Positions 12,512 through 35,532 of a stretch of 64,000 nt of DNA are shown here, piece by piece; position 1 is the stretch's first letter, and every line of letters begins with the position of its first letter. The translations under genes and the position numbers were made by a program. The stretch covers positions 362,544-426,543 of the forward strand of contig CAKUJD010000001.1 in assembly GCA_934661195.1 (NCBI GenBank), given 5' to 3'. Origin of the DNA: an uncultured Muribaculaceae bacterium. GTDB lineage: Bacteria > Bacteroidota > Bacteroidia > Bacteroidales > Muribaculaceae. The notes under the pieces are model-generated. The model saw nothing but the letters and a program-made list of their open reading frames with translations. It was not told the origin of the DNA and searched no databases.

Positions 12512-12525
12512 CCGCCTGCCTCCTT

Positions 12526-12602
12526 CCTACAGATTTTTTGTGCTGCGAGTGCTTGAACTTATCGCCTGAAAAATCCGTAAAAATCAGTGCTATCTGTGGG
12601 AG
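12526..12602. repeat. Weak remnant of the CCCACAGAT repeat family
   Basis: Short pieces CTACAGATTTTTTGTGC and AAATCCGTAAAAATCAG, then CTATCTGTGGGAGA, resemble the forward and inverted halves of the arrays at 24210, 24916, 32167 and 33931, but with gaps. It sits just past the stop of the DUF2156 gene. Confidence 0.4.
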
Positions 12603-12727
12603 ATCGCAGACTGCACCGGTGTGGCTGCCGCACTGAATTCAGACAGAAGGCCACAAATATGTCGTTAAGCCGAGAGGCCATTAATCGGAATCTGTGGATG
12701 GAATTTTGAGTGTGGATAAACACAGCT

Positions 12728-23029: not shown

Positions 23030-24190
23030 TTATTTATAGAACTTGTCAATGTCGTAGCGTTGATCATACTCATATATTTCATGCGTTTTATCCCCAGGCC
23101 TAAAGCCATCGGAGAAGAAAGACTTGTATGGGTATAGTGTGCCAAGAGCCCCCCACTGCAGCACAATGCGGGTGAACAGCAGCGCCATCAGCAGCACCAG
23201 GCTCGCGCTGTAGGTGCTCACCACGCGCTCGCGCGTGGCCAGCGACGTCAGGGTGCATATCAGCCCCAGCATGTAGAACCAGCTCAGGCGTCCGCCGTTA
23301 AGACTCTTGGTGAACACCAGCAGAATGCCGCAGAACACCAGCGCCATGTTGAGCAGCGTCACCTCTTTGGCGCTCTTGCCGTCGATGCGGTCGTAGCGCA
23401 ACAGGATGTAGCCCAGCATCACCACCGCCTCAATCAGGTAGTCGAAGCGGAAACCGCCGCCCTCGGCCTCGGTAGTGTAGCCCTCGGTGCGCGCCTCGCT
23501 GCCCGAGAGCGACCCGAACTGCGAAAACAGCGCGTCGGTGGGCCCAATCAGCCCCACAATGCCGCACACCACCATTGTGGCTATCACACTGTTCTTGTCC
23601 ATCTTGCGCTGAGGCACAAAGTAGAACGGCGCAAACACGATGGCCGAGTTGTGAAACGAAAACGCCAGCAGCACAATGCCGAAGAATGCCCACGGCCGCC
23701 GCCTCACGGCATAGTCCACCGCCAGCCACGCAATGCTCGCCGCCAGCACCTGCCGCAGATAGGTGAATGTGAAGAAGAACCACAGCCCCATAAACAGCAC
23801 CAGCGCCATCGGATAGTTGGTGGCATAGCGCCGAAGCGACACAAACAGCAGCGCATATATTATCAGTGTCACTGTGAATATAAACACATAGCGGTTCAGC
23901 GTGAACTGCCCGATGAGCACATTCAGCATGTCGTAGCCAATCTCCTTGGGATAGAGCGCGTAGAGCGAGCCGCCATACCACGGGAAACCCTTATACATCA
24001 TCTCGGCCGTCTCGTCGAACACGGCCCCGTAGATATACCGGTCGTAGCCGCCGAGCATGTCGGCGCACCCCAAAATCAGCGCCAGCGCCCCCAGAAACAC
24101 TCCCAGAAACGCCGTCGAGCGCCCGCCGCGCCCCACAGTGGCAAAGTAAGCCACCACCGGCACCGCAAACAAAGCAAAATAAAGCAACAT
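23030..24190 (-). CDS. EpsG-family polysaccharide polymerase-like membrane protein
   Basis: A 386-aa protein with about ten membrane helices, matching the EpsG family, which is thought to polymerise repeat units as Wzy does. Typical is GYDRYIYG near the first periplasmic loop, then YPKEIGYDMLN, TFTYLRQVLAASIA and FSFHNSAIVF. It is GC-rich. It would be the polymerase of the locus, since no other Wzy candidate is present. The upstream side is the repeat array with the GxxExxY gene, which interrupts the operon. Confidence 0.9.
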   Translation of the reverse strand: MLLYFALFAVPVVAYFATVGRGGRSTAFLGVFLGALALILGCADMLGGYDRYIYGAVFDETAEMMYKGFPWYGGSLYALYPKEIGYDMLNVLIGQFTLNRYVFIFTVTLIIYALLFVSLRRYATNYPMALVLFMGLWFFFTFTYLRQVLAASIAWLAVDYAVRRRPWAFFGIVLLAFSFHNSAIVFAPFYFVPQRKMDKNSVIATMVVCGIVGLIGPTDALFSQFGSLSGSEARTEGYTTEAEGGGFRFDYLIEAVVMLGYILLRYDRIDGKSAKEVTLLNMALVFCGILLVFTKSLNGGRLSWFYMLGLICTLTSLATRERVVSTYSASLVLLMALLFTRIVLQWGALGTLYPYKSFFSDGFRPGDKTHEIYEYDQRYDIDKFYK

Positions 24191-24209
24191 AACTAAAACC
24201 TTAATTCCT

Positions 24210-24500
24210 TCCCACAGATGTTTCCTTTTATATTTCCCACAGATTTACACAGATTATCACAGATTTTTATTCCCACAGATGGTGAATTGTATTTCCCACG
24301 GATTTACACAGATTATCATAGATTTATGATGTGTGAAAATATTAGGATCTGTGTAAATCTGTGCCAATCTGTGGGAGCCCCAAAATCAGCTCCAGTGGAA
24401 GCCCAAGAACACATCTGTGCAAATAAAAAAGATCCGTGTAAATCTGTGCCGATCTGTGGGAACCTCAAAAAACATATTTCGTGTCGATTAGTGGGAGCCC
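24210..24500. repeat. CCCACAGAT repeat array, left of the GxxExxY gene
   Basis: Forward units of the type CCCACAGATTTACACAGATT followed by ATCACAGATTT occur at about 24211-24350. Inverted units of the type AAATCTGTGCCGATCTGTGG follow at about 24350-24500. The array can therefore form long imperfect hairpins. Copies in this array include shortened and degenerate units. No gene is inside. Confidence 0.8.
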
Positions 24501-24523
24501 AAAGGATAAAATATGTGGGCACA

Positions 24524-24895
24524 TCAGAGAACTTTGCGAAAGATAGAGTGCATAATGTCATCGGTGTTGAAATTCACCAAAATGCCCAGCCGCTTGCCTG
24601 TGAGACGCAAGTAGCTCAGCAACTGCTTGTGATGCAGATTAGTCAGCTTCTCCACCGACTTCAACTCAATCACCACACAGTCTTCCACCAGCAAGTCGAG
24701 CCGATAGTCCACAGGCAGCACATGCCCGTCATACACAACCTTAATCGGCTTCTGCTGCTCCACCTTCAGACCGGCCTTCCTCAACTCATAGCAAAGAGCA
24801 GCCTCATACACCGACTCCAGCAGCCCAGGCCCCAGAGCGTTATATACATTGAATATCGCCCCGCGAACGGCGTAGCTAACCTCATTCTCATTCAT
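24524..24895 (-). CDS. GxxExxY protein (PD-(D/E)xK nuclease-like)
   Basis: A 123-aa protein of the GxxExxY family (PF13366 type). The name motif is GLLESVY (Gly24, Glu27, Tyr30). A restriction-nuclease-like core follows, with Asp67 in YRLDLLVED and Glu77-x-Lys79 in VIELKS, which matches a PD-(D/E)xK active site. No biochemical role is established for the family as far as I know. It is on the strand of the surrounding polysaccharide genes but unrelated to them, and it is flanked within 24 bp on each side by arrays of the same repeat. It looks like an inserted cassette. Confidence 0.92.
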   Translation of the reverse strand: MNENEVSYAVRGAIFNVYNALGPGLLESVYEAALCYELRKAGLKVEQQKPIKVVYDGHVLPVDYRLDLLVEDCVVIELKSVEKLTNLHHKQLLSYLRLTGKRLGILVNFNTDDIMHSIFRKVL

Positions 24896-24915
24896 AATCC
24901 CAACCCTTTAAAAAC

Positions 24916-25039
24916 TCCCACAGATAGCTTATCATTATCTCCCACAGATTTACACAGATTATCACAGATCAAAGGGTGGATGAAGTTAAAATCCGTGCAA
25001 ATCAAAAAAACTGTGTAAATCTGTGCCGATCTGTGGGAA
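24916..25039. repeat. CCCACAGAT repeat array, right of the GxxExxY gene
   Basis: Forward units start at 24916 and at about 24940 (CCCACAGATTTACACAGATT), and an inverted unit (GTAAATCTGTGCCGATCTGT, then GGGA) ends at 25039. Forward and inverted halves face each other as in the left array. The gap between gene start and array is 20 bp. Confidence 0.8.
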
Positions 25040-25069
25040 CCCTAAAAATAAACCCGAGGGAACCGGAAG

Positions 25070-26269
25070 TTAATCGAATAGTGCAAAAAACTGTGCGGCC
25101 ACCGAGCCGCGGTCGTGATGCCGTAGCACCGCATCGCGCCCAGCCTTGGCCATTGTCTCATAGCGGTCTGGATTGGCCGCCATGTCGGCCAGTGCATCCA
25201 CCACATCCTGCTCGCAGTCATACACAATGCACTCTTTGCCATGGCGCACGGCAATATTCTCAAGTGCAAAACCAGTGCCTATTACCAGCAAACCGTTGGC
25301 CAGTGCATCGAGCACCTTGCCTTTAGTGCCGGTACCTATGGTGATTGGCGTCAGCTGCACATCGTGTCGGCATACCTCTGTTATGTAGTCGGGAGCAAAC
25401 TCAACCACCTTCACGTCCCATCCAGCATCGGCCAGCCGCTGCGCCAGCGCATTCCAGCTGCGCCCCAAAAATGTGAACTCGAAGTGCTGCGCAAGAGCAT
25501 CGGCATTAGCGGCAAGGGCCTCAATCAGCATCCGCCCACGCTGCGCCATATACAAATTGTTTTGCCCGGCCAGCAGCAGACGCAGTTTTCCATTGTGCCT
25601 AAAGTCAATTTCCTTGAACGGATGCTGCACATCGTAGTGCGGATGGCGTATGAACCGCGCATCGGCCTTTGGGTTGACGCTTCGCAACTCTTGGGCATCG
25701 GCTTCGCCCACCAAGTGATAGCGCACCATGCAGCCTCCCATCAAATTTCGCTCAAGCCGCCGATATTTATGGCGCATCACGCGGTTGCGCAGTTGCTGCG
25801 AGCGGCGCACAGCCCCCAGATGGTCGCGCAACTCAAGGCATCGTTTATAATACAGCGACTCGCAGTCGGGCAGTGTGTGCACAATTTGGTGCTGCTGCAG
25901 TTGCCGTGCTATGCCACCCAGTTCCTCACCGTTTATCCAAACGCCATCGGGCCGCATACCATTTATTTGCCTAATTATGCTGCGCTGCAGCCTTATGTAG
26001 CGGAACACTGGGTAGCGCATCATCATCCTCACCACCAGTAGCCTGATGGCCCATCGCAGCCACCATGGCTGCTTAAGCACCGTGATAGTGCAGTTGAGCT
26101 CCTCAGCAATCGCTCTAATGCGCTGATGGCTCACACCATTGTAATTAAGCGTGAATATGTGTAGCTCAATACCGCTGTTGCGATATTTGGCCAAGTGGTA
26201 GCCAAGCGCTGTAGCCCCCCGATAGTTCTCCGCCGTAGGCGTCAACAAAGTAACCTCAACTATCCGCAT
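25070..26269 (-). CDS. Glycosyltransferase (GT4-like)
   Basis: A 399-aa GT-B protein. It opens MRIVEVTLLTPTAENYRGA and has a basic central region (residues about 140-180). The donor domain carries LLLAGQNN, FTFLGRSW and LTPITIGTGTKGKVLDALANG, the last typical of GT1/GT4 enzymes that bind a nucleotide sugar. The 3' end lies 30 bp from the repeat array. It overlaps the upstream glycosyltransferase by 10 bp. Confidence 0.85.
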   Translation of the reverse strand: MRIVEVTLLTPTAENYRGATALGYHLAKYRNSGIELHIFTLNYNGVSHQRIRAIAEELNCTITVLKQPWWLRWAIRLLVVRMMMRYPVFRYIRLQRSIIRQINGMRPDGVWINGEELGGIARQLQQHQIVHTLPDCESLYYKRCLELRDHLGAVRRSQQLRNRVMRHKYRRLERNLMGGCMVRYHLVGEADAQELRSVNPKADARFIRHPHYDVQHPFKEIDFRHNGKLRLLLAGQNNLYMAQRGRMLIEALAANADALAQHFEFTFLGRSWNALAQRLADAGWDVKVVEFAPDYITEVCRHDVQLTPITIGTGTKGKVLDALANGLLVIGTGFALENIAVRHGKECIVYDCEQDVVDALADMAANPDRYETMAKAGRDAVLRHHDRGSVAAQFFALFD

Positions 26270-27363
26270 TGTATGCTATTGTTGATTTCATTAAACAGGT
26301 GCTCCCATTTCGACATAATCTCATCAATGTCAAACAACTCTGACATTTTGTGCGCTTTTTCAGACATGCTTTTTCTTAATGCGTCATTCTCAATTAGCTT
26401 GCAAATTCCGTTTGCAAGTTTATCGATGTCGCCAACTTTGCGCACTAATACGCCATTTACCCCGTCTTCAATCAATTCTGCTGGCCCCGCTATGCAGTCA
26501 AATGCGATGGAAGGCACTCCATATGACGCGGTTTCTACTATGACTAAGGAAAAACCTTCATAACGTGATGAACATATGTGAATGGAACTTTCAGCGATTT
26601 TGCTTCCTATGTCTGACGTGCGCCCACATAAAGACACAACGTTGCTTAAGCCATCCTTTTCGATAATACTTTCCAATAAATCTCGCTGTTGGCCATCACC
26701 ATATATGTTCAGTCGCCAATCTGGGTGCTTAGCTGCAACCAATTTCCAACTTCTAATAAGCAAGTCAAATCCTTTCTGGTAGTTTAGTCGCCCTATGGCT
26801 ATTGCATCTTTGCTAGTGCAGTCTGAAATATGTCCCGCTTTAATCGTTATTGGATTGGGAATTACATGCGTGTTGCTCATAAATCGCTGGTAGAACCGCT
26901 TATCAGTATATGTGAGCATGATAGCCCTCTCATATTTGGAAGCGCAATATGTTTGTCTCATAGTTTGCCACACGGCTTTTGTCTTGCTGATGGGTTTGGT
27001 GCTCATCATGAAAAAGCGATTCCATGCAAAATGAAATTCAGCTATTTTGTGGCTTTTGTCTTTAACCTTCCATAAAAACAGTAGTTCAAGCCCGCCTGTG
27101 GAAATCACTATATCGTAAGCATTCTTTTGGAGATGTTTTGACAGCGCCACTTTATAGCCCGATTTCATGCAGTGTGGGTCGCACTGCAAATCAACTAATT
27201 TGATCGATGGGCTAAGTGCGAATGCCGTTGATTTTCCCCTTTGAGATGCAACAAGTAAGGTTACATCATAGCCATGTTCGGTGAGCCAGTTGGCCTTTAC
27301 CGACACAACACGCTCCATACCGCCACAATTATAGAACGCCTCAATGCAATATGCGATTCTCAT
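26260..27363 (-). CDS. Glycosyltransferase family 4
   Basis: A 367-aa GT-B enzyme opening MRIAYCIEAFYNCGGMERVV. Donor-site motifs are AIGRLNYQKGFDLLI and SRYEGFSLVIVETASYGVP (E-x7-E). The gene is AT-rich and marks the left end of the large AT-rich block. It overlaps the next gene by 10 bp even though that gene is GC-rich. Confidence 0.92.
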   Translation of the reverse strand: MRIAYCIEAFYNCGGMERVVSVKANWLTEHGYDVTLLVASQRGKSTAFALSPSIKLVDLQCDPHCMKSGYKVALSKHLQKNAYDIVISTGGLELLFLWKVKDKSHKIAEFHFAWNRFFMMSTKPISKTKAVWQTMRQTYCASKYERAIMLTYTDKRFYQRFMSNTHVIPNPITIKAGHISDCTSKDAIAIGRLNYQKGFDLLIRSWKLVAAKHPDWRLNIYGDGQQRDLLESIIEKDGLSNVVSLCGRTSDIGSKIAESSIHICSSRYEGFSLVIVETASYGVPSIAFDCIAGPAELIEDGVNGVLVRKVGDIDKLANGICKLIENDALRKSMSEKAHKMSELFDIDEIMSKWEHLFNEINNSIQCG

Positions 27364-27448
27364 ATTTTAGGTAAATGCTGAAATTAAAACTATTTTGCTG
27401 CTTAACTGAATGTGGATTGCACACATTAAAAAATGAGTAGTGTTCACG

Positions 27449-28483
27449 TTAGTATTGAATGTGGTACTTTCCCAACCATTGCCGAAGTAATAGCAACTTA
27501 AATTTTTTTGGCTGAAAGACATAAACGATCAGCTTTAGTAAAACAAAAATGTCCTTGACTGGGATCTCAATTATGTTTGGTATAAAGGGGCGTATGAAGG
27601 TATTTATGTAATATCTTATTTTAGTACTCCTTATTTTATGGATTGTGTCTTTGGTCGCAGTGGCCGTAATTGGGGATGGAAAGCCAGACAACTTAACATA
27701 TTTCCAATAGTATTTGTCCAATGGGACTCTTATATTTAGCCAAGGTTTGACATGTGTTGCAAAATGAATTATTGATGGACTGAAATAATAGTCGTTATAA
27801 TCAAAGCGTTTTTGCCCGTAATCTATGACAGCTATTGAAAAAGGGTATGCTCCATATTTGTATGGCAGCTGAAGCCATTTGTGCCTAAATGTATAGTTTA
27901 ATACGTCTTGATCTTCAAAGCGTAATCTGTTTTTCATGTTGTCCATGTAATCGAAAAACATACTTTGACAATTGTTCTCTCGCCAATATTTTAGGTTTAT
28001 CATAAGAACTCCAGCGCAAAACATTTTGTCATCAAGCCCAATCCCGATGTCGAACCTATGCTTGTTGTCATATGGGCAGGAGTCTCTTACTGCAGCAACG
28101 CCATAACCGTCTAGGTTGATTTCGAACAATTCTGAGATGTCGTTTAAAACAATAACATCACAGTCCAAATATAGAATTTTGCCTATGTCGTTTGGAATTG
28201 TTGAACCCAAAATCAGCCTATAGTATGTCGCTACACTAAGTGAACTATGTGTGATTTGTGCGTTTCGAAACAGATTGCTCTTACTGATGTCATAGAATTG
28301 TACTTCTTGTCTATAGCGGGAGCATAATTCAGATACAATGTTTCTGGAAGATTCAGACAAATTGTTGTGTAGTAGGTGTACTGTTATGCTATGATTCTTA
28401 TTATTGTCAAATACGCTACATAGCATAGCCATGCAATGTTGTAAGTAGGCGTTGTCTGTACTACACGAAATATTGAGATGCAT
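27449..28483 (-). CDS. Glycosyltransferase family 8 (LgtC-like)
   Basis: A 344-aa GT-A enzyme. It opens MHLNISCSTDNAYLQHCMAM. The metal-binding DxD is in ILYLDCDVIV, followed by MFCAGVLMINLKYWR, typical of GT8 galactosyl or glucosyl transferases. A basic, hydrophobic C-terminus (KKFKLLLLRQWLGKYH) suggests membrane association. AT-rich, 7 bp from the upstream gene. Confidence 0.92.
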   Translation of the reverse strand: MHLNISCSTDNAYLQHCMAMLCSVFDNNKNHSITVHLLHNNLSESSRNIVSELCSRYRQEVQFYDISKSNLFRNAQITHSSLSVATYYRLILGSTIPNDIGKILYLDCDVIVLNDISELFEINLDGYGVAAVRDSCPYDNKHRFDIGIGLDDKMFCAGVLMINLKYWRENNCQSMFFDYMDNMKNRLRFEDQDVLNYTFRHKWLQLPYKYGAYPFSIAVIDYGQKRFDYNDYYFSPSIIHFATHVKPWLNIRVPLDKYYWKYVKLSGFPSPITATATKDTIHKIRSTKIRYYINTFIRPFIPNIIEIPVKDIFVLLKLIVYVFQPKKFKLLLLRQWLGKYHIQY

Positions 28484-28489
28484 ATGCTA

Positions 28490-29440
28490 TCAGTTTTGAA
28501 AGATTCTGTTTATTACAGAAATGGAAAAATACTTCAGGAAACTTTTAAAGTTGAAATGTGGGCCTCGTTCAAGGCCCCTATAAATTCTATTCCATTTGAA
28601 GAACGGAATGGACCAGGAATAGTCCCCGCATTGACCATATATCCGGTGCTTTAATGCAATTATTGTTTCCGCTTTCAATTTATCTTCGAATGAGTTATTT
28701 GTTGCCGTGGTCGCTATTTTCTCAGAGAGCCAGCGGTCTGCACGTATAGTTGCATTTAGTTTTTCTCTGTCGACTACTTTGCTTTGTCGTATGTTTGATA
28801 TATTATAGTCTGATATTCGAAAGTAAAATAATGCATCCTGTGTGTTTGCTTGCCCAAACAAAGTCAAATTGTTTACTACGGTTAAAATGTCACTAAACCA
28901 TGCATAGGGTAAATAAATGAATCCTCCAGAGTCCCTAATCGCAGATGTTTTAAACACATAATTCCCTATACAACCAATGTAATTGCCACAGAAGATGCTA
29001 TGAAGTGCTTCCATTGTACTCTGATGCTCATCAAAAATGTCTTCCTTTGCTGTCCACTCGCCAAGTTCGTTAATCCTAATTGTACGAGCCCGTAGAACAT
29101 TCGTATTGGGATATTTAATTGAAAGTGCATTAATTTCTTTTAGAAAATCAGGGTGATATACATCATCATCTGAAGCAATGATCAAATAGTCTGTATCACA
29201 TTGTTTTAATAACTTGTTCCAATGGTTAACTAGATCTTTCCCTCCGATATTATGTGTGTTTCTTAGATAGGTTATTTTATCACAATGTCCATGATCGCTG
29301 ATCATGTCTTTTATGCCTTCTGGGGAGTTGTCGTCAGATACAACAATTTTGAAGTCTGTATATGTTTGTGATAGTATGCTATCTAGCGCAGCTTTAAAGA
29401 ATTTAGCCTTATAAGCTGGCATAAAAAAAGTATATTTCAT
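28490..29440 (-). CDS. Glycosyltransferase family 2
   Basis: A 316-aa GT-A enzyme opening MKYTFFMPAYKAKFFKAALD. The motifs VVSDDNSPEG and IASDDDVYHP are present, with a second conserved aspartate near WFSDILTV. Overlaps the pyruvyltransferase gene by 4 bp. AT-rich like its neighbours. Acceptor and donor cannot be told. Confidence 0.92.
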   Translation of the reverse strand: MKYTFFMPAYKAKFFKAALDSILSQTYTDFKIVVSDDNSPEGIKDMISDHGHCDKITYLRNTHNIGGKDLVNHWNKLLKQCDTDYLIIASDDDVYHPDFLKEINALSIKYPNTNVLRARTIRINELGEWTAKEDIFDEHQSTMEALHSIFCGNYIGCIGNYVFKTSAIRDSGGFIYLPYAWFSDILTVVNNLTLFGQANTQDALFYFRISDYNISNIRQSKVVDREKLNATIRADRWLSEKIATTATNNSFEDKLKAETIIALKHRIYGQCGDYSWSIPFFKWNRIYRGLERGPHFNFKSFLKYFSISVINRIFQN

Positions 29441-30591
29441 CTGATGAATTTATACATGTTATTAAATGAGTCAAGAACCAATTTTTTGCTTGCGTCAATA
29501 TTTGGAATTATAGGGTTAGTTAATTGCCGTTCAATCGATGTGTATAATTCTGTTTTATTCAAACAGACAACTGCTTCAGGATGCCAATGCTGCATGTAGT
29601 TCAAAAGTTTCTTTGCTCCAAATCCAATTGTGGGTATGTTAAAACTTAAGGCGGTTATCGCCCCATGGAGTGAAGTCCCAATGTAAAGAGAAGACTTCTT
29701 GATTAGGAGCATTATGTTCCAAATACTGGGTTTGTGTATTAGGAACGTATTTCCTGATTTAGTGGCTTTGTGGATTAGTTTCAAAGCCTTGTCATCAGAA
29801 TGTCCAGGGGCTGTCCCTATGGGGCAAAGTATCACTTTAATGCCAAATTTACTGGACACATTGTCTATCAAGTTGGCGTAGAAATTGGTGTCGTCTCCTA
29901 AATTCCTTATGTTTATTTGGAAAAATATGTATTTTCCCAACGTTGGAAAATCCGTTTTTGATGCTTTGGCCCTTAGAACGTCTTCTCTGAATATGTCTGA
30001 AATCAGAATCGCTGAATCAGGAATGCAGTGGCTTGTTATTCCATTTTGGACCAAAATTTGGTGGGCATTGAAATCTCGTGTTGAAATGTAGTCAACACTG
30101 TTTAAAATTTCTTTGTTGTGGGGCTCTCTTATAACATTAGGATAGTTTTCTATAAATGAACCACCCAATGAATTGTAAAGGACGCAATTGAAAGTTGTTA
30201 ATTCTTTCTTCCCCAGTGTGAACGGGTACTTGGTCCTGATCCCGTATCGAAACGCTATATACTTGTTGTATAATTTGCTGTTTAATTTGTTAGAAATCGC
30301 TTCAATATAATTGCTGGGCTTGTCGATGAAGCTTATAATCATTGGCCAATTGATAAAGAGACAATCTCCTCCAGCTACCATTAAATAATTTTTATCGTCT
30401 TTACCTGCTTTGAAAATCTCCTTGTAACTGTGAGTCCTTATTGCACCATACTTGGACAGGTCGTTCCCTGCCGTAGAGCAGAAGATGATTTTTTTGAAAC
30501 ACTGGTTGAAATAGTGTTGAACTATGTGCGAAAATAATAGGTCGCCATAATTCATCCTATCACTTGGTGATAAAACATATAAGACTTTCAT
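29437..30591 (-). CDS. Polysaccharide pyruvyltransferase family protein
   Basis: A 384-aa protein. The N-terminal GDLLFSHIVQHYF and central NSLGGSFIENYP, followed late by LYIGTSLHGAITALSFNIP, match the polysaccharide pyruvyltransferase (CsaB-like) family. It would add a ketal pyruvate to a sugar, giving the polymer negative charge. It overlaps genes on both sides by 4 bp, so it is inside a tightly packed operon. AT-rich. Confidence 0.9.
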   Translation of the reverse strand: MKVLYVLSPSDRMNYGDLLFSHIVQHYFNQCFKKIIFCSTAGNDLSKYGAIRTHSYKEIFKAGKDDKNYLMVAGGDCLFINWPMIISFIDKPSNYIEAISNKLNSKLYNKYIAFRYGIRTKYPFTLGKKELTTFNCVLYNSLGGSFIENYPNVIREPHNKEILNSVDYISTRDFNAHQILVQNGITSHCIPDSAILISDIFREDVLRAKASKTDFPTLGKYIFFQINIRNLGDDTNFYANLIDNVSSKFGIKVILCPIGTAPGHSDDKALKLIHKATKSGNTFLIHKPSIWNIMLLIKKSSLYIGTSLHGAITALSFNIPTIGFGAKKLLNYMQHWHPEAVVCLNKTELYTSIERQLTNPIIPNIDASKKLVLDSFNNMYKFIR

Positions 30592-32147
30592 GACAGAGGC
30601 TTACTATTGGTGGATAATCGATTTAGATGCGATTTCAGAGTATTAAAAACAAAATGCCGTTCGTTTTGGTTTAATCCAATAGTGTATGATAGTACTAGTG
30701 TGATTAAAATTGACATTGATGTTCTTAAGAAACAAAAAAGAACGCTATTATATGGCGTAGCGTACTTGATGATTAAGACTAAAGAGAATGCCAAAGTAGC
30801 CGTGGGAAGGCAATTGAACAAGATGTTTTTTATATAGAAGACAATACTTATATTGATGAGATGCTTAATGATGAATAGTCTTGCTATAAATGATGCCACG
30901 CCTAGTGTTAGGTGGATGATAAGTACTGAGTATGGTGGAAATCCAAAGCTAAGGAATAAATATGATATAGGAACTATAGCTAATAGAATTCCACCTACTA
31001 CAATTTGATAGAACCTTATAGTCCCAGTTGCTGCGGCTACCGTCATTAAAGGATTGGAAACCCCATCTAATAATGTAATCCAAATTGAAATCTGTGTAAA
31101 AATAACGGCATAATCAGGTACATTATTCAGCCAAATGGAAAGTATGGTTGAGGTTTCTGTTGATAAAGGAAGTGCAACGATTAAAAGAAGAAAAAATGAG
31201 ACTTTGGTGCTAATAAGAGTGAGGTTTAACATCCTTTCTCTTTCTCCTGTCGCGTATGTCTTGATTATTTGTGGATTTAGGGCGGATTGAAAGTTATAGG
31301 ATAATTGCCCAATTGCTCCTTGTACTTGTGTGCTAATTGCTCTTGCCGCATTAACAGCTGGTCCGAAGAAAATATTTAACAATATATCAATACCTTGTGA
31401 AAAGAGGATATATGCTAATTGCCCAATCATGTTCCAACTTGCAAATGAGAAAATTTTTTTTGTGCTTGATGATGGGAATGCTTTTCTTGTTAGAATTGTT
31501 TCGGGAAAACGTGATTTGCAATATATGGCATATGCCGCAAATGTTATAATACTAGCAAACAAGCTGAGAGTTGCGTAATATATTAGATGGTCAAATGGGG
31601 AAACAATTAGTGCATACACAATAATCAGTTTGAAAACGGCATTTGCAATGGACATTAGAGCGAATATTCCCATTCTTTCATGTGAAATTACGCATGCTGT
31701 ATAGGGTATTAAAATAATTGAGAACCACACGGATATCACACCTAAATGGAATACCCAAAGAGCTGCGTCAAATCGATTTAAGGGAATAACTAATTTGTTG
31801 TAAAGAAGCCAACTTCCAATTATTTCGACAAATATACAAATTAGGCAAGCGGCAAACAAGTGAATGGTGAAACACGATGTGAAGGTTGCTCTTAGTTTAA
31901 GCGAATCTTTTTTGCCAAGTTCAAAAGACAAAAACCTTTGAGAACTAGTGGTTAGTGCGCCAGAGATAAAATTAAAAAGAGTTACCACCCCGCTTACAAC
32001 ATTGCAAATGCCATAGTCCACAATACCCAAAGCGTTAAGTAACATCCGGCTGGTATATAATGAAATAAATAGCACGAGCAGCATCCTCAGGTAGAGCATG
32101 AGGGTGTTGCGGGCGATGCGGCGGTTGTTTGCTTGGACGTCGGTCAT
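30588..32147 (-). CDS. Polysaccharide flippase (Wzx/MATE-like)
   Basis: A 519-aa membrane protein with about 12-14 helices, in the polysaccharide transporter superfamily that flips lipid-linked repeat units. The start at 32147 (MTDVQANNRRIARNTLML) is preferred because the upstream in-frame ATG at 32183 lies in the repeat. Motifs include an early VVSGVVTLFNFISGALTTSS and the mid-protein GPAVNAARAISTQVQ, typical of this family. AT-rich except for the first 60 bp, which are GC-richer. Overlaps the next gene by 4 bp. Confidence 0.92.
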   Translation of the reverse strand: MTDVQANNRRIARNTLMLYLRMLLVLFISLYTSRMLLNALGIVDYGICNVVSGVVTLFNFISGALTTSSQRFLSFELGKKDSLKLRATFTSCFTIHLFAACLICIFVEIIGSWLLYNKLVIPLNRFDAALWVFHLGVISVWFSIILIPYTACVISHERMGIFALMSIANAVFKLIIVYALIVSPFDHLIYYATLSLFASIITFAAYAIYCKSRFPETILTRKAFPSSSTKKIFSFASWNMIGQLAYILFSQGIDILLNIFFGPAVNAARAISTQVQGAIGQLSYNFQSALNPQIIKTYATGERERMLNLTLISTKVSFFLLLIVALPLSTETSTILSIWLNNVPDYAVIFTQISIWITLLDGVSNPLMTVAAATGTIRFYQIVVGGILLAIVPISYLFLSFGFPPYSVLIIHLTLGVASFIARLFIIKHLINISIVFYIKNILFNCLPTATLAFSLVLIIKYATPYNSVLFCFLRTSMSILITLVLSYTIGLNQNERHFVFNTLKSHLNRLSTNSKPLS

Positions 32148-32166
32148 CTTCGTTGCATTTTGGGGT

Positions 32167-32484
32167 CTCCCACAGATTTGCACAGATTATCACAGATTTT
32201 TATCTGCACTGATTGCTTGGGCCTCCCACAGATTGGCTTTTCAATGCCTCCCACAGATTTGCACAGATTATCACAGATTTTTATCTGCACTGATTGCTTG
32301 GGCCTCCCACAGATTGGCTTTGATATGTCTCCTATAGGTTTGCACAGATTGTCGCTGATTCATGAGTGGCTGAATAACATAAAATCCGTGCAAATAAAAA
32401 TCCGTGTAAATCTGTGTCAATCTGTGGGAGCCCCTCTACGAGAACAGAATCTGTGGGAGCCTTAAAAGCGCAGAATCTGTGGGC
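32167..32484. repeat. CCCACAGAT repeat array without a gene, right of the flippase
   Basis: Two forward copies, starting at 32167 and 32248, form an 81-bp direct duplication (CTCCCACAGATTTGCACAG start, GCTTGGGCCTCCCACAGATT end). A degraded third forward unit and two or three inverted units (GTAAATCTGTGTCAATCTGT, then GGGAGC) follow. The whole array separates the flippase from the upstream acyltransferase gene. Confidence 0.8.
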
Positions 32485-32498
32485 GGGTAGGGTTGGCG

Positions 32499-33698
32499 TC
32501 AGCGGCCGCCGGTGAGCAGGCGGCTCAGCCAAGGCACGCGGGCCGTCAGGGCCGAGGCGGCGGTGCACAGCGCCACGGCCAGCAGCACCATGGTGGCGTC
32601 CATGGCCAGCAGCATGTGGCCCGAGTAGGGTGCCACTGCGCCGGCCAGGCGGCCTGCTGCCTTCATCAGGTGGGGCAGCAGCACTATGTGCAGCGCAAAC
32701 ACCATGAAGCTGTGGCGCGCCAGCGGCGAGGTGAGTGTGCGGCTGCGGCCATGGGCTGCGCGGCTGGCCAGCCCCAGCGCCAGCCCCACGCCGGCCAGTA
32801 TGGCGGTGTGGTGCAGCCAGTCGATGTTGAGCTTGCCAAAGCCCACGGCGCGCTCCACATAGTGGAAAGTGGCCAGGTCGGCCGCGCTGGCCACTGCCCA
32901 CACCGCGGCGGCAGCGGCTATCACCCTTGGCTGGGCAGCCCAACTGGTGACGCTGCGGCCGCTGATGGCCGCCCACGCCCCCAGGCTGTAGAAGCACACG
33001 GCCACGCTGCTGAACCCTATCACCCATATCGGGCCGCGACCCACCCACCAGAAGGCCAGCGCGGCCAGCGGCAGCGCGCAGCCCCAGCGCCTCACGGCCA
33101 GCCACACCAGCGGCGAGGCCAGGCTGAGCGCCATCAGGTCGCGCACAAACCACAGCGGCAGGTCGGCGGGGTGGTTGAGCCCGTAGGCGTCGAGCGAATA
33201 GAAGCTGAACGACAGCAGCAGTGACTTGAGGCTGTAGCTGCTGTGCAGCGCAAAGTAGGCAATCAGGTTCCACACCATGTAGGGCACCAGCAGCGACCGC
33301 GCGCGGCGCCGCAGCTTGGCGGTGTAGGTGGCGCGGTCGAAACGCTCCACGCGGTAAAACATCAGGTAACCCGAAATGAGGAAAAACGTGGGCACGGCCA
33401 CATCGGCCGCTATGCACGCCACATACGACAGCGCCATCTGCGCCCACGTGGCGCAGTGTCTTATGCTCAGCTCTACATGGCCATAGGGGATGTGCTTGAA
33501 CGTGAGCAGGTTGTAGTGGATAATCACCACCAGCACGGCCATGGGGTAGCGCAGCGAGTCGAAGGCCAGCCAGGGGCCGGATGACTGCTTGGGTTCAGAC
33601 AAAATCTTGGGGTCACCGGCGCTTGTTGCGGCTCCGGCGTCAACGCTGTGGCGGGCTGTGCTCCGATCGATACTGTCGCAGTAATCGCTGTGGTGCAT
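32499..33698 (-). CDS. Acyltransferase 3-family membrane protein
   Basis: A 399-aa integral membrane protein. The start of the fold is DSLRYPMAVLVVIIHYNLL, where His is the likely catalytic residue, then PTFFLISGYLMFYRVERFD. These are acyltransferase 3 hallmarks. The first 42 residues are hydrophilic and could be cytoplasmic. It is very GC-rich, unlike the acyltransferase at 21182, so the two are not a recent duplication. It may begin the locus, with a promoter about 160 bp upstream. Confidence 0.9.
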   Translation of the reverse strand: MHHSDYCDSIDRSTARHSVDAGAATSAGDPKILSEPKQSSGPWLAFDSLRYPMAVLVVIIHYNLLTFKHIPYGHVELSIRHCATWAQMALSYVACIAADVAVPTFFLISGYLMFYRVERFDRATYTAKLRRRARSLLVPYMVWNLIAYFALHSSYSLKSLLLSFSFYSLDAYGLNHPADLPLWFVRDLMALSLASPLVWLAVRRWGCALPLAALAFWWVGRGPIWVIGFSSVAVCFYSLGAWAAISGRSVTSWAAQPRVIAAAAAVWAVASAADLATFHYVERAVGFGKLNIDWLHHTAILAGVGLALGLASRAAHGRSRTLTSPLARHSFMVFALHIVLLPHLMKAAGRLAGAVAPYSGHMLLAMDATMVLLAVALCTAASALTARVPWLSRLLTGGR

Positions 33699-33858
33699 AG
33701 TGCGAAATTTTTTTTGCGGGCACGCGCGTGCTGTGAGGCGTCAAGACCCGTCGCGGCGCATGTGGCCGCGGCAGCGCTCAAAGTCTCACAGAATGTTGCT
33801 TAGTCTTTCCTTTGCCCGTATGGAATCATACTATTTTGCGAAGTAGAATTTCCACGTG

Positions 33859-33889
33859 CAAAGATACAACATTTGCCCCAAAGCGCCAA
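33859..33889 (-). promoter_or_regulatory. Putative promoter of the acyltransferase gene
   Basis: On the minus strand TTG (33889-33887) is followed after 20 bp by TATCTTTG (33866-33859), then C. This matches the Bacteroidetes -33/-7 pattern and would start the polysaccharide-locus transcript with a leader of about 150 nt. Confidence 0.45.
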
Positions 33890-33930
33890 CGCCCACTGCC
33901 GACAATCATTCAACATCCCCTTCTGCCGCT

Positions 33931-34104
33931 TCCCACAGATTCTGTTTTTTGGCTTCCCACAGATCGGTTGACTTTTGCCTCCCACAGATCGGCACAGATT
34001 TACACGGATTTTTATCTGCACAGATTTTATATTGTTCTGTGACTCATAAATCTGTGGCAATCTGTGCCGATCTGTGGGAGATATTAAAAGCCAGTCTGTG
34101 GGAG
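33931..34104. repeat. CCCACAGAT repeat array between the polysaccharide and inositol-lipid regions
   Basis: Three forward starts (CCCACAGATTCTG, CCCACAGATCGG twice), one with the full ACAGATTTACACGGATT extension, then inverted units ending TGTGCCGATCTGTGGGAG and CTGTGGGAG. The forward and inverted halves face each other. No gene is inside. Confidence 0.8.
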
Positions 34105-34129
34105 TCTCGGAATCAGCATCTGTTGGACG

Positions 34130-34170
34130 AAAAAAATCCCTGCCGACGGGGCTTGAAGCCTGTCGGCAGA
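34130..34170 (-). terminator. Intrinsic terminator of the inositol-3-phosphate synthase gene
   Basis: On the minus strand CTGCCGAC and GTCGGCAG pair around an AGGCTTCAAGCC inner stem, followed by GGGATTTTTTT. It lies about 60 bp past the stop codon. Confidence 0.8.
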
Positions 34171-34230
34171 GACCGATGTTCAAAGATTTATGTGAAAAGA
34201 TGAATTTACTTTCCTTTCAGCGCGTGCTGC

Positions 34231-35532
34231 TTAGTCGATGAGCTGGTCGGGTTCGTATCCGCCCATCTCACGGATGGCGTTCTTCAGCATCACATACTGG
34301 TCAAAGAGGTTGTTGACGGCCTCTTCGCCCTTGGTGTAGTCGTGCATCGGGCACTTGAGGAAGAAGCTGAGGAAGCGCTGGATGCCGTAGCGGCCTGCGC
34401 GTGCTGCGAGGTCGCTCAGCAGAGTGAGGTCGAGCAGCAGCGGAGCGGCAAGGATTGAGTCGCGGCACAGGAAGTTGATCTTGATCTGCATGGGATAGCC
34501 CATCCAGCCAAAGATGTCGATGTTGTCCCAGCCCTCCTTGTTGTCGTTGCGCGGCGGGTAGTAGTTGATGCGCACCTTGTGGTAGTAGTTGCTGTAGAGG
34601 TCGGGTTGCTTGTCGGCCTCGAGGATGGTTTCAAGCGTAGAGAGCTTGCTCACCTCCTTGGTGCGGAAGTTTGCGGGGTCGTCGAGCACCAGGCCGTCGC
34701 GGTTGCCCAGAATGTTGGTCGAGAACCAGCCGTTCAGACCCAGGCAGCGTGTGCCGATGATGGGGGCGAAGCCCGACTTCACCAGAGTTTGGCCTGTCTT
34801 GAAGTCCTTGCCGGCGATAGGCATCTTGGTCTTCTCGGCCATCTCCCACATTGCGGGGATGTCGACAGTGGTGTTTGGAGCGCCCATAATGAAGGGAGCG
34901 CCCTCGGCCAGTGCTGCGTAGGCGTAGCACATCGACGGAGCCACGTGCTCGCGGTCGTCGTCCTTCATGGCCTTCTCAAGGGCGGCCAGAGTGCCGTGCA
35001 CCGGCTCGTAGACGGGCACGTAGATCTCGGTCGAAGCGGCCCAGATCACCACGATGCGCTCGCAGTTGTGCTCCTTCTTGAAGTTGCGGATGTCTTCGCG
35101 CAGAGCCTCCACCATTTCCCAGCGGGTCTTGCAGTCCTTCACGTTGTCGCCGTCGAGGCGCTTAGCATAGTTGTGGTCGAAGGCGGCCTTCATGGGCACA
35201 ATCTTCTCCAGCTCGTCGCGCACGGGGTTGATGTCTTTCTCCTTCAGCACCTCGCAGTACATTGCGCTCTGGTAAGCGTTCTGCGGATACACGTCCCAGC
35301 AGCCGAACTCAATGTCGTCGAGCTTGGCCAGCGGAGCTATTTCGCCGTAATGCAGATATTTCTTGTCTTTGCCCTGGCCCACGCGGATTTTGTCGTATTG
35401 GGTCATTGAGCCCACAGGCTTTGCCAGACCTTTGCGTGTCATAAGAACGCCTGTCATGAAAGTAGTTGCCACTGCACCGCAGCCCACAACCATAATGCCT
35501 AATTTACCGGTAGCCGGTGTTGCTTTTGCCAT
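34231..35532 (-). CDS. ino1: Inositol-3-phosphate synthase (MIPS)
   Basis: A 433-aa NAD-dependent enzyme that makes inositol 3-phosphate from glucose 6-phosphate. The Rossmann start is GIMVVGCGAVATTF. The catalytic core includes GAPNTTVDIPAM, IAGKDFKTGQT and the closing GWMGYPMQIKINFLCRDSILAAPL, which are clear family signatures. It has its own promoter and terminator, 390 bp from the other four inositol-lipid genes. It would supply the head group for phosphatidylinositol and possibly inositol sphingolipids. Confidence 0.95.
   Translation of the reverse strand: MAKATPATGKLGIMVVGCGAVATTFMTGVLMTRKGLAKPVGSMTQYDKIRVGQGKDKKYLHYGEIAPLAKLDDIEFGCWDVYPQNAYQSAMYCEVLKEKDINPVRDELEKIVPMKAAFDHNYAKRLDGDNVKDCKTRWEMVEALREDIRNFKKEHNCERIVVIWAASTEIYVPVYEPVHGTLAALEKAMKDDDREHVAPSMCYAYAALAEGAPFIMGAPNTTVDIPAMWEMAEKTKMPIAGKDFKTGQTLVKSGFAPIIGTRCLGLNGWFSTNILGNRDGLVLDDPANFRTKEVSKLSTLETILEADKQPDLYSNYYHKVRINYYPPRNDNKEGWDNIDIFGWMGYPMQIKINFLCRDSILAAPLLLDLTLLSDLAARAGRYGIQRFLSFFLKCPMHDYTKGEEAVNNLFDQYVMLKNAIREMGGYEPDQLID

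Follow-up and report, generated by a model that had tools for sequence, protein, structure and literature searches.

A REPtron consists of a TnpA-REP gene, mostly single-copy, beside repetitive extragenic palindromes (REPs), with cognate palindromes dispersed and gene and repeats co-evolving (passages of PMC8266576 and PMC8049555). Gene-repeat duos of this HuH type have been described largely in gammaproteobacteria, according to passages of PMC8266576. Here, we analyse a 64,000-nt stretch of contig CAKUJD010000001.1 from an uncultured Muribaculaceae bacterium (the window, whose numbering is used throughout), in which a gene of the GxxExxY family sits between face-to-face arrays of short repeats. 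The same layout surrounds most of the relatives that we examined in three phyla, with words that vary between gene lineages, and this points to a class of mobile gene-and-repeat elements not described before. The class itself has good support, and its enzymatic mechanism is offered as a hypothesis; the window copy presumably arrived by insertion.

In anatomy, the GxxExxY element resembles a REPtron. Inverted cognate repeats with dispersed copies were found both in the window and in relatives, and the likeness extends to co-evolution of gene and repeat and to being rare on, or absent from, plasmids (for REPtrons, passages of PMC8266576 and PMC8049555). The first-pass annotation of the window had drawn the same parallel, with a nuclease-like protein replacing the REP-associated tyrosine transposase (RAYT). 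Evidence from relatives strengthens it: (i) repeats cluster at the genes, (ii) copies are denser in the own genome, (iii) gene-free alleles exist, and (iv) gene and repeats diversify together. The two systems differ in that the protein here is of the PD-(D/E)xK rather than the HuH type, that the arms are built of several 8–10-nt words rather than one palindrome, that the one word counted has at most 29 matches per genome rather than hundreds, and that the element is patchy at an operon junction. Since a HuH protein is absent, the GxxExxY element is not a REPtron.

Three further systems invite comparison. In 23S rRNA intervening sequences (IVSs) with S23, a stem of inverted repeats likewise holds a short open reading frame (ORF) in its loop (passages of PMC4990558). 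The GxxExxY element differs in lying outside rRNA, in encoding a protein other than TIGR02436, and in showing no sign of selection for RNA pairing. Transposons paired with miniature inverted-repeat transposable elements (MITEs) have inverted ends, gene-free derivatives and empty sites, all of which recur here (the empty sites at korA-korB and thrS-infC in relatives), but no recognised transposase, near-identical copies or target duplication were seen in the set examined. Finally, the window protein shares with Cas4/RecB-type nucleases the fold and the D-ExK-QxxxY residues, which we take to be the Cas4/RecB-type motif. The iron-sulphur cluster of Cas4 involves four cysteines, whereas the window protein has two, and the immediate neighbours of its gene are EpsG-like and glycosyltransferase genes.

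The window gene and its arrays

The gene (24524..24895, minus strand) encodes a 123-aa protein with a RecB/Cas4-type PD-(D/E)xK nuclease fold. The protein matches TIGR04256 (E 1e-43; 148.4 bits, curated cut-off 35) and PF13366 (E 3e-42; 144.1 bits, curated cut-off 22), the latter being the only Pfam family matched. An alignment of 74 relatives has 12 invariant columns, among them D67, E77-x-K79 and Q91xxxY95, and the window protein keeps all of these. The D and E-x-K of the PD-(D/E)xK superfamily stand on the core fold, and the best solved match to a confident structure model is SSO0001. TIGR02436 (S23) is not matched, no transposase domain is among the Pfam matches, and the protein lacks the features of a HuH/Y1 transposase. 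Judged from its sequence, then, the gene is predicted to encode an intact GxxExxY PD-(D/E)xK protein, as the first-pass annotation had supposed.

That annotation had also placed the arrays within 24 bp of the gene ends, with forward and then inverted units able to fold as hairpins, and each of these points holds. About 20 nt separate the arrays from either end of the gene. To the left, forward units of the CCCACAGATTTACACAGATTATCACAGAT type (24209..24325, plus strand) are followed by inverted units (24346..24503, minus strand); to the right, forward units occupy 24915..24971 (plus strand) and inverted units 25008..25040 (minus strand). Folded as single-stranded DNA, part of the left array (24234-24377) gives a z of -7.6 and the right array one of -4.8. 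The word CCCACAGAT has 22 matches in the window against 0.38 expected, a number that none of 100 shuffles reached, while CCCACAGATTTACACAGAT with up to 3 mismatches has 16 matches against 0.00 expected.

Gene-free copies had been claimed at 32167 and 33931, and weakly at 12526. The first two (32167..32485, forward and then inverted units; 33931..34103; neither with an assigned strand) are present with matching words, and the second contains a near-perfect palindrome at 33980-34080 whose single-stranded fold has a z of -10.8. The third (12526..12602, no strand assigned) stands only in part: the words recur in a weak, decayed-looking palindrome, but the fold of 12520-12605 is unremarkable (z -0.9, not significant). 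Lone words are also present at 1584 and 9720. In the gene-free array at 32167-32330, a stretch of ~81 bp (forward units plus spacer) is doubled in tandem.

Inverted arrays flank most GxxExxY genes in the relatives examined

The test set beforehand, whether repeats cluster at GxxExxY genes, was run in relatives: 60 genomes of a related genus, which was located via the INO1 protein of the window (89% identical in G448, Bacteroidota), plus other phyla. In the genus, the family scores above cut-off in 38 of the 60 genomes, with 97 matches. Eighty of these were taken with flanks, five of which lacked the full 400 bp, leaving 75 genes for testing (some of the remaining 17 matches were fetched later and are left out of this count). 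At each locus, the 400 bp to the left were aligned with the reverse-complemented 400 bp to the right, and a score of at least 30 was taken as the threshold. It was reached by 66/75 GxxExxY genes, as opposed to 13/468 other ORFs (a control that contains at least one TIGR02436 gene) and 23/2,870 random places. Over the sets scored here and below, a few loci at 30 or more, such as L211, do not exceed the highest score of their own shuffles. When the comparison was confined to ORFs with non-coding stretches of 60 bp or more to the left and to the right, 42 of 44 GxxExxY genes and 4 of 161 controls passed. The predicted clustering was therefore observed. In a larger set of 1,422 other ORFs, 25 score at least 36, and these include additional GxxExxY genes, two genes resembling TIGR02436 and array-adjacent ORFs.

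The layout recurs further afield. Inverted arrays flank 26/29 best-matching GxxExxY loci in the phylum that, from the record of G004, we take to be Verrucomicrobiota, and 21/25 in FCPU426 (flanks sufficed in 29 of 30 and 25 of 29 loci, respectively). Three F. filum GxxExxY genes have arm scores of 71, 49 and 33. On plasmid-class records, three of seven copies have arms (Gemmatirosa 127, Bacteroides finegoldii 45, Bernardetia 36). The layout is common to most GxxExxY relatives examined in three phyla, though it is not universal. The Gemmatirosa copy (L320) lies in very strong G+C-rich inverted flanks; three places are noted in that record.

Words differ among loci and change with the protein

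A period of 8–10 nt fits best in 97/132 arms, against 38/132 after shuffling, and most arms contain, by eye, about three words each. The words themselves vary among loci (CACAGATT, CACGGATT, CACGAATT, ACGGACT, GACATAATAACATA, AAGAATTAGAG and others). It is the architecture that is conserved, not the word, and CCCACAGAT is one of many.

Across 67 loci, arm similarity rises with protein identity (Mantel r 0.26, p 0.001), and does so among pairs below 60% identity (r 0.16, p 0.001). Proteins that are 70–80% identical but have no homologous neighbour within 6 kb show a mean arm similarity of 0.49 (n=17); the mean is 0.45 for the seven such pairs above 80% identity, and 0.23 for proteins under 40% identical (n=1375). 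Syntenic pairs in this comparison share genomes and so are not independent. The window protein groups with six relatives (SH-aLRT 98, in a tree built from few columns), whose words are, by eye, CACAGAT variants.

The two sides of an element also tend to shift together. Because the arms had been picked for their best inverted match, a choice biased towards arm likeness, the test for joint change used whole gaps: in 33/40 syntenic pairs (not independent, as they share genomes), the likeness between the two arms of an element exceeds that of the same arm across genomes. For example, G478 and G479 share 97% identity in the flanking proteins and 72% in the GxxExxY gene, and both arms show the same shift of their units. 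An orthologous gene-free array cluster (L131:7549-9914 versus L055) consists mostly of CACGGATC in G489 and of CACAGATT in G492; loops and flanks are kept while the words differ in concert. Given that G489 keeps CACAGATT arrays elsewhere, this change is regional. Units thus follow the protein tree on average and tend to change jointly on both sides of the gene.

This pattern, together with the scarcity of positives among controls from the same stretches (13/468 and 4/161), makes it highly improbable that the association is due to chance or is a property of repeat-rich operon gaps in which the gene is a bystander, even though unrelated families do occupy the same junction (see below). A ~37-nt unit based on AAATTCGTTTAATTCGAATAATCCGTGACAG is repeated in tandem several times in the 3' flank of the GxxExxY gene of L103 (G488).

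Dispersed copies, empty sites and mobility

At distances above 1 kb from any gene, copies of a locus's own arms reach a density of 13.5 per Mb within its genome, compared with 1.73 per Mb elsewhere (7.8x), and only 22/67 loci have an own-arm copy away from genes in the stretches examined. A pair of ACAGATT words is found in 36 of the 60 genomes of the related genus; G492 has 29 matches to it, of which 7 lie no more than 600 bp from its GxxExxY gene.

The first-pass annotation had proposed looking for empty sites, and comparison among relatives reveals them. At the korA-korB junction (30 loci, L290-L319; gene names from reading of the proteins), the gap is 5–9 bp in ten loci and 17–18 bp in two, with no array. 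Complete GxxExxY elements fill eight loci, with gaps of 481–709 bp; some gap lengths include the start codon, and that of L302 includes part of korA. L313 carries arrays and a gene remnant, L304 a clear gene-free palindrome (z -7.0), L311 a possible one and L297 the trace of a solo unit. A TIGR02436 gene occupies L305 and DUF559 genes occupy L301 and L306, while L303, L314 and L318 have other gaps of 34, 36 and 122 bp. By coordinates, a ninth GxxExxY copy (G486) and a split copy (G480:C208) lie here as well. Mapped onto the korB tree, the states of the junction require 13 changes, about as many as shuffled labels do (13.6), and gains are therefore indistinguishable from losses.

These junctions bear on the idea that the gene serves its host, with the arrays as operators or processing sites through which the protein regulates itself, the dispersed arrays as regulated sites or decoys, and the whole inherited vertically while diverging fast. 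Arrays and protein do co-diversify, and the eight labelled korA-korB genes form nearly one lineage (2 changes versus 7.8 shuffled; the G486 copy was not labelled as korA-korB in this count). Against it stand the arrays on both sides of the gene, the 12 of 30 junctions where 5–18 bp and no array remain in the gene's absence, and the failure of gene identity to track neighbour identity at korA-korB (rho 0.19, p 0.40, 21 non-independent pairs). We regard such a regulatory role as unlikely.

At the thrS-infC junction, the element is present in G492, while G489, whose thrS C-terminus is 99% identical, has a short hairpin with stem halves that resemble the ends of the G492 element. Reciprocally, G492 shows a palindrome without the gene at a site where G489 carries it.

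Inverted terminal arrays, empty sites and gene-free derivatives would equally be left by a conventional transposon that has terminal repeats and is accompanied by MITEs, with either the GxxExxY nuclease or, in trans, an enzyme of the host serving as its transposase. However, paralogs within one genome mostly have different words; of the 45 gene pairs with the closest resemblance, the sole within-genome pair (L115/L123) is 72% identical, although most genomes are many-contig drafts that could hide identical copies; no transposase domain was found, nor any target-site duplication recognised, by eye, at the inspected sites; and GxxExxY occurs on just 7/72,556 plasmid and 0/50,697 phage records. 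We give the transposon explanation little credence.

Orientation and level of action

GxxExxY genes are co-directional with both neighbours in 59/74 cases, compared with 229/443 other ORFs (p 4e-6); in Verrucomicrobiota the figure is 17/26. Such a bias would suit an RNA-level element like the 23S rRNA IVSs, in which a transcribed hairpin has the gene in its loop and is removed from operon transcripts by processing. So would the position of the G492 element between two halves that match the G489 hairpin, the same kind of arrays around TIGR02436 genes, and the Coxiella IVS, an ORF in a stem-loop that replaces a small loop (passages of PMC4990558). Mismatches in the arms speak otherwise: three sets of loci show no sense-strand excess of G-U over A-C mispairs (80 vs 87, 34 vs 29 and 27 vs 35), and hence no sign of selection on an RNA hairpin. 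This favours action on DNA and leaves the RNA-level explanation quite improbable; we favour the view that orientation is set by expression or tolerance within operons.

Other gene families share the layout

Inverted arrays are not private to GxxExxY. Among best-matching loci, 26/29 TIGR02436 four-helix-bundle genes of the related genus (L231-L260) and 23/29 DUF559 (PF04480) genes (L327-L356) score at least 30 (flanks sufficed in 29 of 30 loci for each). We take TIGR02436 to be the IVS (S23) protein family and DUF559 to be a Vsr-like nuclease. The TIGR02436 arrays are built of other short words, and 24/27 of the genes are co-directional with both neighbours; DUF559 arms are G+C-rich and palindromic (e.g., GCCTCACCCCCGACCCCTC..GAGGGGAG). 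Across genomes, the single korA-korB junction hosts all three unrelated families, beside empty and gene-free forms. A tentative, broader reading, which we hold to be possible while leaning against it, is that GxxExxY, TIGR02436 and DUF559 genes in hairpin loops form a cross-phylum class of operon-junction elements, new to the literature, that compete for junctions, the nuclease families recognising their own rapidly changing words and homogenising them through homing-like cycles of cutting and repair.

A proposed REPtron-like element spread by cut and repair

The explanation that we think rather probable is a widespread class of small, REPtron-like mobile elements, composed of a nuclease gene and arrays of its own word and spread by cut-and-repair, of which the window copy is one member. 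In this model, a PD-(D/E)xK gene between face-to-face arrays of its own ~9-nt recognition word would be inserted into the gap between co-directional operon genes. Most likely, the protein would bind, as a multimer, words on successive helical turns; it would then nick or cut a hairpin or cruciform of these words, or an unoccupied related site. Repair from another copy would spread the arrays and make the units of an element change together, while gene-free palindromes (array, loop, inverted array), which would correspond to REPINs or MITEs, would arise by gene loss and copying and stay dispersed in the genome. That the GxxExxY protein binds and cleaves DNA, with copying by repair, is what we infer from these patterns.

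Several observations weigh against this model. Firstly, word and gene are not always coupled: some genomes that lack a matching gene are rich in the ACAGATT pair (up to 26 matches), four genomes with a matching gene have 0, 11, 15 and 22 gene-distal matches (p 0.046), and CACAGATT-like words recur outside the window's clade, at L075, L100 and L121. Secondly, arms are missing from some copies: 9/75 GxxExxY genes of the related genus score below 30, and four of the seven plasmid-class copies (Sphingomonas, Fusobacteria, Prevotella, Treponema) score 22–26, about their shuffle maxima. The Verrucomicrobiota, FCPU426, plasmid-class, TIGR02436 and DUF559 loci are, moreover, best profile matches and not a random sample. 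Thirdly, the lack of a target-site duplication recognised by eye counts here too, and the rarity on plasmid records and absence from phage records disfavour a freely roaming element. Finally, since unrelated proteins share the layout, it may not depend on the GxxExxY nuclease.

Our literature search found no role assigned to the GxxExxY family. Passages in which the name appears concern a gene near a reverse transcriptase and a gene table of an algal virus, and do not mention repeats; within the literature searched, the letters of the window repeat do not occur. GxxExxY is very common (at least about 8,000 scored candidates per protein search), and a pairing of gene and word that change together offers a direct, testable hypothesis for its function. 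Gene-repeat duos would extend beyond HuH transposases to a second enzyme class and to other phyla, and nature would supply families of small nucleases together with the DNA words that match them.

Genomic setting and further observations

The window gene lies between an EpsG family gene (23030..24190) and a glycosyltransferase gene (25070..26269). All three are on the minus strand, which agrees with the polysaccharide-operon setting given in the first-pass annotation. No Rfam family was found within 23900-34300, and the immediate neighbours are of polysaccharide type. Elsewhere among the relatives, two proteins that look, by eye, ATP-binding (L139:6353-7609 and L137:10267-11517) are flanked by long inverted repeats, with scores of 94 and 56, respectively.
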